Shown one piece after another: positions 21,064 through 24,295 of a stretch of DNA of 28,835 nucleotides. The DNA is from a virus: positions 1 to 28,835 of IMG/VR virus record IMGVR_UViG_3300047300_000522; one strand, given 5' to 3'. Both the position numbers and the translations under genes were made by a program. The first letter of the stretch is position 1, and the number at the start of each line of letters is the position of its first letter. Below the pieces are notes generated by a model. That model was not told the origin of the DNA and searched no databases. It was given only the letters and a program-made list of their open reading frames with translations.

Positions 21064-21265
21064 AGATGCGCTAAATTTCGCAGATGTATTTATTAGCCAT
21101 TACACCAACACGGGGTGGAAGTACGGAAAGAACAAGATGAAAGATTGGAAAGCGGCAATGCGTTCCGCTTGGGATTTAAGTAAATTTGTAACTAAAAACA
21201 ATAATCAAAATGAACAACTTGGTAGAATACAAAGGTCAGCACTACAACAATGGCTTGACGAATGA
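20891..21265 (+). CDS. Probable phage replication-associated protein
   Basis: The gene encodes 124 residues. A coiled-coil N-terminus (MNEQQLKQEIESMRSRISA) is followed by EQVAEYFLQRIPYACSEDAL and FISHYTNTGWKYGKNKMKDW, then KAAMRSAWDL. The YxxxGWKxGKNkMKdWKAA pattern recurs at the end of phage replisome organiser or helicase loader proteins. Its place after the DnaA-like gene supports a replication role. It overlaps its neighbours by 173 and 56 bases, both unusually long for this arm. Only the C-terminal motif of such proteins is present. Confidence 0.55.
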   Translation: MNEQQLKQEIESMRSRISAIEELISSLHQKTPRTSFTIPTSEQVAEYFLQRIPYACSEDALNFADVFISHYTNTGWKYGKNKMKDWKAAMRSAWDLSKFVTKNNNQNEQLGRIQRSALQQWLDE

Positions 21266-21980
21266 CGAAAGAGCCTATTTAGAGGCTGTAAACCAAACGA
21301 AGGTATGTGATTCAACCTTACCGATGTTTAAATCACTAATCGCAAAGGGAATCGTGATAAGCGGTATTAAGCAACTGCCATCACCCGAGGAAACACAAAT
21401 GCTATACGACACCGCACAACAATACTACCGCTTCTTTACTATTGCCGAAATCGGTTTAGCGTTCCAACTCAATGCGGTTGGTCAGGCGTGGAAACGTGTT
21501 GAGCATTACGGTCTTATGTCTATTCAATTTTTGTCCGATGTATTGAACGCGTATAAGATTTACAAGATGCAAATGAACTTGGACATTGACCGAAAGAAAG
21601 CCAAGTTGTCAATTGGTACAACAACCCAAGACGATACTCCAGTAGATTTCAAAGCAATGTTCGAAAGTGATTTGAAAAGATGGAAGGAAGGGCAAAGGGT
21701 TGCGGTTATGTTGTTAGCTCCTGCAATGATGCGGAAGTTTGAGGAACTTGGCGCGATTCATCCCAATTGTTGGAGCGATGACGAATGGAAGAAATTCAAG
21801 TTTATGTCTTACCAAAACATTTGCAATGAAAGACAACTCACTAACTACCAAATAACCAATCTTAAACAGAAGGACAAAGAGAACTTTGATATTGAGGTAA
21901 GGCAAGGGATATTCCGTTTATTATATGCGGATATTATGGATAGTCATATATTACAGGAACGAATTAAAGCGAAGTTATGA
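21210..21980 (+). CDS. Conserved phage protein, replication region
   Basis: The gene encodes 256 residues starting MNNLVEYKGQHYNNGLTNDE. The motif FFTIAEIGLAFQLNAVGQAW and the stretch KRVEHYGLMSIQFLSDVLNA recur in Bacteroidota phage proteins. The C-terminal half is helical and charged with RQGIFRLLYADIMDSHILQE. I cannot assign a function. Position between the replication-like gene and the methyltransferase suggests DNA metabolism, possibly a helicase loader. It overlaps the previous gene by 56 bases and the next by 4. Confidence 0.65.
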   Translation: MNNLVEYKGQHYNNGLTNDERAYLEAVNQTKVCDSTLPMFKSLIAKGIVISGIKQLPSPEETQMLYDTAQQYYRFFTIAEIGLAFQLNAVGQAWKRVEHYGLMSIQFLSDVLNAYKIYKMQMNLDIDRKKAKLSIGTTTQDDTPVDFKAMFESDLKRWKEGQRVAVMLLAPAMMRKFEELGAIHPNCWSDDEWKKFKFMSYQNICNERQLTNYQITNLKQKDKENFDIEVRQGIFRLLYADIMDSHILQERIKAKL

Positions 21981-22153
21981 TTTCGTGCGGTTGTGAAGTA
22001 AAGAAAAAAGATGCGTTTAAATGTACTGGATGTAATGAGAGTTTCTGCGGAAGGCACATTTATTATTACATTGATGAAGCAAATATAGCCATAACGCGAA
22101 ATTCAAAACCATATTGTGAACCGTGCTACAAAATTAAATATAAGAAACTATGA
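21977..22153 (+). CDS. Small zinc-finger protein
   Basis: The gene encodes 58 residues with Cys at 4, 6, 16, 19, 24, 47 and 50 and a His at 27 (SCGCEV, KCTGC, FCGRH, YCEPCYK), a two-site zinc-finger layout. It starts at the ATG at 21977, overlapping the previous stop by 4 bases, and its TGA overlaps the methyltransferase ATG (22150) by 4. Such tight packing supports the call. It resembles treble-clef or AN1/B-box-like fingers. The partner is unknown. Confidence 0.65.
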   Translation: MISCGCEVKKKDAFKCTGCNESFCGRHIYYYIDEANIAITRNSKPYCEPCYKIKYKKL

Positions 22154-23016
22154 GGCACGGAAGTTTATTCAGCGGTATAGGTGGATTCGATTTAGCAGCC
22201 GAATGGATGGGATGGGAAAACGTATTTCATTGCGAATGGATGCCATTCCCACGACAAGTATTACATTATCATTTTCCAAATTCAATAAGTTATGAAGACA
22301 TCACAAAGACAGATTTCACTATTCACCGAGGAACAATTGACATCCTCACAGGAGGGTTTCCTTGTCAACCCTACTCATCAGCAGGAAAGCGACTTGGGAA
22401 AGAAGATGAGCGACATCTCTGGCCGCATATGCTTCGAGCAATTCAAGAGATTCAACCAACATACGTCGTGGGGGAAAATGTTCGTGGAATCACTAATTGG
22501 AACGGGGGAGTGGTCTTCGAAGAAGTGTGCGCTGACTTGGAAAATTGTGGGTACGAAGTACAACCGATATTATTGCCAGCTTGTTCCGTCGGTGCGCCAC
22601 ATCGAAGAGATAGAGTTTGGTTCATTGCTTCCAACACCGACAGTATTCGATTCAACGAATGCGAGTGCGACAATGAAAAGTTCACAGGTCAAGGAAGGAT
22701 CAATGCACTCAATGACATTAACGAGAATGATGGACAAGGGATTATTACCAACACCAATGGCATCCGAGGGAACGAAATTAAGTGGCAATCCAAAAGAAAA
22801 TCAAATGTCAATGACAAAAATTGTTTACGAAATGACTGGCAAAACTTCCCAACTCAATCCCCAATTTGTGGCGGAGATGATGGGCTTCCCACCGAATTGG
22901 ACGGAATTACCTTTTCTAAATGGCGACAAGAATCAATCAAAGGATATGGCAACGCAATAGTTCCACAAGTGGCTTATGAAATCTTTAAAGTAATTCAGCA
23001 ATTAGATGGAAATTAA
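22150..23016 (+). CDS. dcm: DNA (cytosine-5)-methyltransferase
   Basis: The gene encodes 288 residues and methylates C-5 of cytosine in DNA using S-adenosylmethionine. Ordered motifs are clear: I (LFSGIGGFDLA, residues 6-16), IV with the catalytic C72 (GGFPCQPYSSAGK), VI (GENVRG, from 108), VIII (GAPHRRDRVW, 148-157) and X (KGYGNAIVPQVAYEI near 269). Between them is a short target-recognition region, and the segment FPTQSPICGGDDGLPTELDG precedes motif X. At 288 residues it is compact. There is no cognate restriction enzyme nearby, so it most likely protects phage DNA from host restriction. A 222-codon ORF lies within it in the +1 frame (22292-22960). The gene overlaps TerL by 11 bases. The symbol is by function, not by orthology. 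Confidence 0.9.
   Translation: MRHGSLFSGIGGFDLAAEWMGWENVFHCEWMPFPRQVLHYHFPNSISYEDITKTDFTIHRGTIDILTGGFPCQPYSSAGKRLGKEDERHLWPHMLRAIQEIQPTYVVGENVRGITNWNGGVVFEEVCADLENCGYEVQPILLPACSVGAPHRRDRVWFIASNTDSIRFNECECDNEKFTGQGRINALNDINENDGQGIITNTNGIRGNEIKWQSKRKSNVNDKNCLRNDWQNFPTQSPICGGDDGLPTELDGITFSKWRQESIKGYGNAIVPQVAYEIFKVIQQLDGN
22292..22960 (+). CDS. Overlapping ORF in the +1 frame within the methyltransferase gene; probable conserved dual-coding protein
   Basis: This ORF encodes 222 residues entirely inside the methyltransferase gene, with its own ATG. The sequence is not random-looking: RQISLFTEEQLTSSQEGF, RYYCQLVPSVRHIEEIEF, GSLLPTPTVFDSTNAS, a second LLPTPMASEG, and LNPQFVAEMMGFPPNWTELP. I recall closely similar proteins (with LLPTPTA repeats and an MGFPxxWT motif) from Bacteroidota genomes, where they seem to arise in the same overlapping position. 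The catalytic region of the methyltransferase is read here as TSSQEGFLVNP, in the other frame. Whether the product is made is unknown. The alternative is a frame left open by codon bias in the methyltransferase. Confidence 0.5.
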   Translation: MKTSQRQISLFTEEQLTSSQEGFLVNPTHQQESDLGKKMSDISGRICFEQFKRFNQHTSWGKMFVESLIGTGEWSSKKCALTWKIVGTKYNRYYCQLVPSVRHIEEIEFGSLLPTPTVFDSTNASATMKSSQVKEGSMHSMTLTRMMDKGLLPTPMASEGTKLSGNPKENQMSMTKIVYEMTGKTSQLNPQFVAEMMGFPPNWTELPFLNGDKNQSKDMATQ

Positions 23017-24295
23017 ATACCATTCAAAACAAATCGAAGCCTTAAACGCTTTATCCGTAGACAGTAGAATCCGTCAGTTATTATATGGCGGATCTGCTGG
23101 AAGCGGAAAGTCGTTTCTCGGTTGCGATTGGCAAATAAAAAGAAGGATAAAATATCCAGGGACTCGCGGTTTGATTGGTCGTGCTGAATTAAAGAAGTTG
23201 CGATTAAGTACAATGGCTACATTCTTTGAGTTATGCGCTCAATATGGTTTAGTTCCTGGAAAGCATTACACATACAACGGACAAGACCACGTGATTAAAT
23301 GGTACAATGGAAGCGAAACTATCTTAATGGATTTAGCCGATATGCCATCTGATCCCGAGTTTCAGCGTTTTGGTTCAATAGAGATAACAGATGCCTTTGT
23401 TGACGAAGCGGGTGAGGTATCGCAAAAGTGTATTGATATCTTATCATCTCGGATGCGTTACAAATTGGTGGATGACAAGCCAAAGATATTGCTCACTTGC
23501 AACCCTCACAAAGGTTGGTTATATTCAGAGTTCTTTGATGCGAAAAGAAATGGTAGTATAAGACAAGACCGCGACTTCATCCAAGCCTTACCAACGGACA
23601 ACCCACACATTTCGCCAGTATATTTAGAATCATTGCAACTACTTCCCGACATTGACCGCAAAAGGTTGTTAGAAGGGGATTGGGACTACGATGAAACAAA
23701 GGATAGGCTTTATGAATATGATGATTTATTGCGTTGTTTTAGACCTCAACAAACCAAAGGCGATAAGTATATAACTGCGGATATCGCGCGAATGGGTGAT
23801 GATAGAACTGTGATTGTATTGTGGGATGGCTTACACGCTGAAAAGTTCATTGTCCTAAAACACAAACCGATTAACGAAACGGTATCTATTGTTAACGAAC
23901 TTATCCGAACTCACAATGTAAAGTTATCTAATGTCTTGGTCGATGAAGATGGAATCGGTGGTGGTGCGGTTGACTACATCCGATGTAAAGGATTCTTGAA
24001 CGGATCAAAAGCGGTACGCGATAACTATTTAAACTTGAAATCCGATTGTTATTTTAAGTTGGGAGAACTAATAACCAACAACCTTATCACATTTGAACCA
24101 ACTCACAAAGACACAATAGTTAAAGAACTTGAAATGGTAAGACGCGAGAAACTGGATAGCGATGGTAAACTGCGAGTGACTAACAAAGAGGATTTAAAGA
24201 AAAGACACGGACTTTCTCCCGACTTTGCTGATGCCATAATGATGCGCTCATTTTACGAATTAAAAAGAAACTTTGGTAAATATGCTTTTCAATAA
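23006..24295 (+). CDS. terL: Terminase large subunit (TerL)
   Basis: The gene encodes 429 residues, the motor and nuclease that packages DNA. The Walker A-like loop GGSAGSGKS (residues 28-36) and Walker B with catalytic Glu (DAFVDEAGEV, D133-E134) are clear. The coupling motif LLTCNP follows (about 162-167). The C-terminal nuclease domain starts with ITADIARMGDDRTVIVLWDG, where the first Asp would bind metal, and contains LVDEDGIGGGAVDYI and the final GLSPDFADAIMMRSF. It is complete and of usual length. Unlike all head genes, which are on the minus strand, it is on the plus strand beside the methyltransferase, so it is transcribed with the early arm. Confidence 0.9.
   Translation: MEIKYHSKQIEALNALSVDSRIRQLLYGGSAGSGKSFLGCDWQIKRRIKYPGTRGLIGRAELKKLRLSTMATFFELCAQYGLVPGKHYTYNGQDHVIKWYNGSETILMDLADMPSDPEFQRFGSIEITDAFVDEAGEVSQKCIDILSSRMRYKLVDDKPKILLTCNPHKGWLYSEFFDAKRNGSIRQDRDFIQALPTDNPHISPVYLESLQLLPDIDRKRLLEGDWDYDETKDRLYEYDDLLRCFRPQQTKGDKYITADIARMGDDRTVIVLWDGLHAEKFIVLKHKPINETVSIVNELIRTHNVKLSNVLVDEDGIGGGAVDYIRCKGFLNGSKAVRDNYLNLKSDCYFKLGELITNNLITFEPTHKDTIVKELEMVRREKLDSDGKLRVTNKEDLKKRHGLSPDFADAIMMRSFYELKRNFGKYAFQ

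Follow-up and report, generated by a model that had tools for sequence, protein, structure and literature searches.

Genomic Context and Gene Layout

The window, i.e., the whole stretch of DNA that was analyzed, is the 28,835-base IMG/VR virus record IMGVR_UViG_3300047300_000522. Its plus strand carries a gene for a C5-cytosine DNA methyltransferase, referred to here as alpha, and wholly inside this gene an open reading frame (ORF) of 222 codons in the +1 frame, referred to as beta. The nested ORF had been pointed out in an earlier note made from the sequence alone, and both the ORF and the peptides quoted from it were found at the locus, which has the following features.

22150–23016, plus strand: alpha, C5-cytosine DNA methyltransferase catalytic subunit of 288 amino acids (PF00145, 2.8e-48), with motifs I–VIII and X and without motif IX
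22150–22291, plus strand: single-coding 5' part of alpha with motif I (alpha dN/dS 0.08; divergence at codon position 3 of 0.38)
22292–22960, plus strand: beta, nested +1-frame protein of 222 amino acids, proposed recognition/motif IX subunit (conserved ATG and register, beta dN/dS, match to phrog_1008 at 8e-25)
22351–22371, plus strand: alpha motif IV, GGFPCQP, read from the sequence, with the catalytic Cys codon at 22363–22365
22510–22581, plus strand: stretch of the catalytic overlap in which substitutions are already beta-like (alpha position 1 most variable, codons 121–144)
22613–22852, plus strand: variable region in beta, proposed target-recognition domain; alpha is here an unconstrained open linker (alpha dN/dS 1.32, beta 0.41)
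22625–22639 and 22742–22756, plus strand: the two LLPTP motifs of the beta variable region, read from the sequence
22853–22900, plus strand: motif IX-like segment of beta, LNPQFVAEMMGFPPNW (beta dN/dS 0.09, alpha 0.76; hhalign match to LTPRECARLQGFPDSF, P 0.055)
22909–23001, plus strand: motif X region of alpha, KWRQESIKGYGNAIVPQVAYEIFK (domain 2 of the canonical HMM; alpha dN/dS 0.05–0.10)
23006–24295, plus strand: terminase large subunit (PF04466, 1.3e-9), sharing 11 bases with the 3' end of alpha; context only and not part of the enzyme

The alpha ATG at 22150 overlaps the stop codon of a short upstream ORF. This ORF (21977–22153) encodes a Cys-rich product of 58 amino acids with weak similarity to AN1/LIM zinc fingers (best value 0.00038, under the curated cut-off), meets the alpha start in the form ATGA, and is missing from the nearest relative of the window (locus L013). 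A match to the terminase large subunit was present downstream of alpha in 70 of 80 viral loci, usually at a short distance. An unsystematic look at the neighbors of alpha and beta in the window identified no restriction gene.

A Methyltransferase Gene Lacking Motif IX

Alpha matched the profiles PF00145 (2.8e-48) and TIGR00675 (1e-39) and contains motifs I, IV (PCQ), VI (ENV), and VIII; its matches in the PDB, M.HhaI (1e-19) and M.HaeIII (3.5e-14), extend up to motif VIII. A canonical C5-methyltransferase HMM aligned to alpha in two domains, the first covering motifs I–VIII (residues 5–203) and the second motif X (residues 254–284), the latter with a weak score of 3.5 bits but a conserved GNAIVPQ. 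Motif IX is absent from alpha, the HMM skipping the motif IX positions together with the recognition domain. All motifs that the earlier note had listed for this frame (I, IV, VI, VIII, and X) are thus present; the absence of motif IX had gone unnoticed.

Selection in Two Overlapping Frames

A scan of IMG/VR with beta retrieved 531 relatives, of which the best 80 were kept and 65 distinct ones were compared. The +1 register of beta relative to alpha is identical in all of the best 80 of the 531 relatives. The distance from the alpha start down to the beta start is 142 nt in a large majority of the close relatives, with a conserved ATG; 61 of 66 genes retain the Tyr codon TAT followed by G that creates this ATG. 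When the alpha codons of the window were shuffled synonymously, none of 5,000 shuffles left the +1 frame free of stops over the overlap (mean of 6.5 stops). Such openness is by itself weak evidence, because the catalytic-half +1 frame of the canonical phage methyltransferases L161, L165, and L171, which have no beta, is also open over 114–161 codons and exceeds the shuffle null. These runs possibly reflect codon-context bias or a relic, and it is the selection pattern, not openness, that carries the case for dual coding.

The beta peptides of the 65 distinct relatives have a mean identity of 69% to that of the window, as opposed to 36% in the shuffled null (z 9–15), and conservation of alpha at synonymous sites amounts to 78% in the overlap versus 57 and 52% in the single-coding ends. 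For each frame, dN/dS was calculated from Nei-Gojobori substitution counts over 1461 pairs. Since these values are biased in overlapping frames and the relatives are related to one another rather than independent, contrasts between regions and frames weigh more than absolute values. In the N-terminal part before the overlap, where beta is not coding, dN/dS was 0.08 for alpha and 2.34 for beta. It changed to 0.18 and 0.65, respectively, in the catalytic overlap, to 1.32 (unconstrained) and 0.41 in the recognition region between motifs VIII and IX, and to 0.76 and 0.09 in the motif IX stretch, and returned to 0.05 and 1.54 in the stretch after motif IX and to 0.10 and 1.98 in the C-terminal part outside the overlap. 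The +2 control frame had a dN/dS of at least 1.17 in every stretch. Variation at third codon positions follows alpha as far as about codon 120, beta through most of codons 157–252, and alpha once more from about codon 265; within beta, variation is highest at position 3, whereas at motif IX the other two positions are nearly fixed. Both the dN/dS values and the codon-position patterns thus indicate that function is read first from alpha, then from beta, and finally from alpha again. The last approximately 12 beta codons, after WTELPF, are unconstrained (the beta dN/dS of 1.54 above), so that the functional part of beta ends near 22918.

Across the region from recognition to motif IX, where beta dominates, the alpha frame contained no stop in any of the 66 genes, compared with 3.75 expected per gene from beta-synonymous shuffles; both chains are therefore probably translated through. 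Two kinds of interruption were seen in other loci. In four of them (L283, L284, L286, and L287) alpha is broken by a TAG between motifs VIII and IX, where this frame is unconstrained, and in three viral contigs (L075–L077) a common frameshift ends alpha at 238 amino acids and fuses the beginning of beta to the frame that carries motif X.

The earlier note had claimed that both frames are conserved, and had named stop codons in the +1 frame of close relatives, synonymous-site conservation, and dN/dS in each frame as checks. Every one of its checks that could be run supported dual coding over about 210 codons: beta is stop-free in the close relatives, synonymous conservation in alpha is in excess within the overlap, and purifying selection acts in both frames. 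That the stretch encodes two proteins in overlapping frames is near certain from these comparisons.

The Nested Protein

Beta matched no model in Pfam or NCBIfam and one in PHROGs, phrog_1008, which is labelled “DNA methyltransferase” (8e-25). Beta-like frames have thus already been gathered as a family, the label being silent on an out-of-frame pairing with another methyltransferase gene. A sequence-profile search of the PDB gave no match to beta. In hhalign comparisons with canonical enzymes the only match of beta was that of LNPQFVAEMMGFPPNW to the motif IX sequence LTPRECARLQGFPDSF, which is short and not significant alone (P 0.055); the canonical HMM likewise produced weak and individually insignificant hits on beta, many of which fall on motif IX. 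AlphaFold2 models of beta alone reached a pLDDT of 49.6 with a narrow alignment and of 60.7 (pTM 0.28) with a diverse one, and a Foldseek search of the PDB with the model returned nothing usable. Such a poor model is compatible with, but no proof of, a chain that needs its partner in order to fold.

The segment preceding the motif IX-like sequence varies among relatives in length and in the number of LLPTP-like motifs, from one to five. The nearest relative (L013), compared with positions 21210–24210 of the window, has flanking proteins that are about 97% identical and differs mainly in this segment, which is longer by inserted codons, contains indels of about 100 nt, and has a lower identity to the window. 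By this variability the stretch before motif IX behaves like a target-recognition domain. Taken with the selection data, this suggests that beta supplies target recognition and motif IX, rather than regulation, and that the methyltransferase probably cannot do without this subunit.

Mutual Exclusion of Beta and Motif IX

In a census of methyltransferase loci, beta was missing from every one of the 59 whose alpha frame contains motif IX, none of them chosen through beta. Conversely, all 19 loci with beta lacked motif IX in alpha; some of these were repeat fetches of loci that had been selected through beta, and 11 were independent of any beta search. A further 14 census loci had neither beta nor motif IX as judged by pattern. 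An apparent motif IX in the alpha frame of 14 beta-selected loci was rejected, as these were loose pattern matches located before or at the conserved PTQSP segment.

Among actinophages, split relatives have an MG..W segment located 16–26 amino acids before motif X in the same frame, as compared with the canonical spacing of 16–17 between motifs IX and X. The first gene of Mycobacterium phage Peaches (gp77, followed by gp76) and of Streptomyces phage Sebastisaurus (34, followed by 35) contains motifs I–VIII, and the second gene, in the +1 frame, motifs IX and X. The frame of Peaches gp76 and Sebastisaurus 35 is open well upstream of the annotated start, which may be annotated too late. Mycobacterium phage Babsiella (54/55) has one long ORF with motifs I–VIII, LPTP repeats, IX, and X in a single frame as well as a +1 ORF with LPTP repeats, and possibly represents a fused or intermediate form.

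Distribution

Nested +1 ORFs with an MG[FWYL]..W end were found in phages of Klebsiella (KlebP_265), Mycobacterium (Hades), Salmonella (P22-like), Porphyromonas, and Escherichia coli (Bas77), all of which were drawn from the list of alpha hits with beta not considered. Further nested cases occur in Salmonella phage epsilon15, E. coli phage Bas73, and phages of Rhodobacter, Acinetobacter, Vibrio, Pseudomonas, Xanthomonas, Paenibacillus, and Lactobacillus, and in genomes of Pseudomonadota. Of these, Bas73 and Bas77 are laboratory phages that are easy to handle. Searches with four different betas matched 68, 225, 39, and 30 phage records in partly overlapping sets. An HMM built from betas of Bacteroidota recognized distant betas (e.g., at 3.6e-22, 1.1e-12, 4e-9, and 3e-7), and its matches extend into the stretch for recognition and motif IX, where similarity cannot be a by-product of alpha. 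The +1 frame had earlier been taken for a family of Bacteroidota genomes; relatives in Bacteroidota do exist, but the arrangement reaches far beyond that phylum. Usually alpha alone is annotated. Both genes are annotated in the Paenibacillus phages and in Xanthomonas phage PhiXhv-5, and in BK068099 beta alone is, as a hypothetical protein.

We consider it reasonably probable that these loci represent a widespread and mostly unrecognized class of phage methyltransferases, in which the catalytic gene harbors the whole recognition module in another reading frame, invariably the +1 frame. This class would span phages of Bacteroidota, Bacillota, Actinomycetota, and Pseudomonadota. Evolution of specificity would then take place in beta while catalysis is fixed in alpha, and many of the short “complete” phage methyltransferases in databases would be half-enzymes with an unannotated partner.

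Seven loci in Bacteroides and Parabacteroides chromosomes (L132, L133, L143, and L145–L148) have in-frame TGA codons in alpha and an open beta. Within the conserved parts of alpha, these TGA codons stand at Trp positions (DLAAE[TGA]MGW, DFRG[TGA]RGR, and SFSR[TGA]RQAS). Between L143 and L132, which have the first TGA in common, the single-coding N-terminus has a nearly saturated pS of 0.78 but, with a pN of 0.087, a conserved protein sequence, as though UGA were decoded as Trp. A scan of 5–40 kb around five of the TGA-bearing loci revealed no tRNA gene, and recoding of TGA throughout the element is unsupported for the Bacteroides alpha genes, the neighboring genes being without such codons.

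Proposed Enzyme and Alternative Explanations

The two ORFs, the selection in both frames, the lack of motif IX in alpha, the conserved beta start, and the complementarity with canonical enzymes are observed. We regard it as very likely that they reflect a two-subunit orphan C5-cytosine DNA methyltransferase of a phage, in which the large-subunit gene also encodes, in a different reading frame, a small subunit that contributes recognition and motif IX. In this enzyme, alpha would provide AdoMet binding and catalysis (motifs I–VIII) as well as motif X, and beta the target-recognition region and the motif IX that alpha is missing. Both polypeptides would be expressed from a single mRNA, translation of alpha starting at 22150 and that of beta internally at its own ATG at 22292, 142 nt downstream. 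In the P22-like Salmonella phage the alpha and beta starts are 4 nt apart with one GGAGG-type site ahead of both; a site of this type is also located before the beta ATG of Paenibacillus phage Bloom. From motif VIII to motif X the functional reading of the DNA would be that in the beta frame, with alpha crossing this stretch as an open linker, and the two chains would assemble into one active methyltransferase. As an orphan enzyme encoded beside the phage terminase gene, it would most likely methylate the phage DNA and thereby protect it from host restriction.

Three other explanations were weighed against this two-subunit enzyme. The earlier note had guessed at an accessory or regulatory function for the second protein, and an independent role of this kind (e.g., in anti-restriction or expression control) next to a self-sufficient alpha would agree with the conserved N-terminal half of beta, which has no recognizable domain, and with a predicted structure that matches nothing. 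We nevertheless consider it improbable, because beta appears to carry the very recognition region and motif IX that are missing from alpha. Alpha has neither motif IX nor any constrained recognition region, the most conserved segment of beta resembles motif IX, and beta was found, in the loci examined, only with incomplete alphas and never with complete enzymes. Even less credible is double programmed frameshifting, by which ribosomes would leave the alpha frame for the +1 frame once past motif VIII and return to it ahead of motif X, so that a canonical single chain and neither of the full frames would be the product. The alpha-beta-alpha order of selection is indeed the pattern expected from a frameshifted single gene. 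However, beta is also constrained over the catalytic motifs, with a dN/dS of 0.65 as compared with about 2.3–2.4 in control stretches and frames, its ATG is conserved, a GGAGG-type site is located ahead of the beta start in Bloom and a single one ahead of both closely spaced starts in the P22-like phage, and the alpha frame is open across the recognition region beyond chance. That there is no second protein at all, the frame being open by chance in a conserved gene or constrained by an RNA or DNA element, can practically be dismissed even though the canonical L161, L165, and L171 also have +1 runs longer than shuffles, given the triplet-periodic substitutions in the beta frame with position 3 most variable, the beta dN/dS of 0.09–0.65, and a beta similarity far above the alpha-constrained null.

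Relation to Known Methyltransferases and Implications

The two-subunit enzyme proposed here differs from methyltransferases of the M.HhaI, M.HaeIII, and Dcm type, in which the recognition domain and motif IX are in one frame; the canonical enzymes examined had no beta. It is rare for two proteins of one enzyme to be encoded in a long overlap on the same strand. An experimental precedent from the 1990s is a methyltransferase of a restriction-modification system: Lee, Kam and Shaw reportedly found in 1995 that the alpha gene of M.EcoHK31I also contains, in a different frame, the coding sequence of the beta polypeptide, and that both are needed for activity in vitro.

According to a passage in PMC3404938, the larger subunit of M.EcoHK31I contains motifs I–VIII and X and the smaller polypeptide motif IX, and the recognition domain is predicted in the larger subunit; a passage in PMC3439449 describes the enzyme as naturally split. 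Like M.EcoHK31I (YGGCCR), the window encodes a large polypeptide with motifs I–VIII and X, and its beta is nested in the +1 frame with selection in both frames. M.EcoHK31I is part of a restriction-modification system, whereas the enzyme encoded in the window is an orphan of a phage. The prediction for M.EcoHK31I puts the recognition domain in alpha, whereas selection places the recognition region of the window in beta. As the placement in M.EcoHK31I is itself a prediction, the contrast may stem from a misassignment in that enzyme and not be real. In M.AquI, a C5-methyltransferase in two polypeptides, motif IX is in the second one, as stated in a passage of PMC3404938. That second subunit contains motifs IX and X and the genes are adjacent, whereas in the window motif X belongs to alpha, beta is nested, and the constraint on beta ends before motif X; the Peaches and Sebastisaurus relatives look AquI-like with a partial +1 overlap.

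The literature passages mentioning EcoHK31I describe no phage relatives of it, and neither the breadth of the nesting nor recognition encoded in beta was found in the open literature searched for overlapping, split, or out-of-frame methyltransferases. The nested two-subunit principle is known from one enzyme, to which the present analysis adds a wide distribution in phages and, possibly, a different location of the recognition region. If the proposed enzyme is real, hundreds of phage records would contain an unannotated second subunit, predictions of activity and specificity from the large subunit alone would be wrong, and the recognition domain would have been sought in the wrong reading frame. 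These phage genes would also form a large natural data set from which to learn how two overlapping frames divide selection between them.
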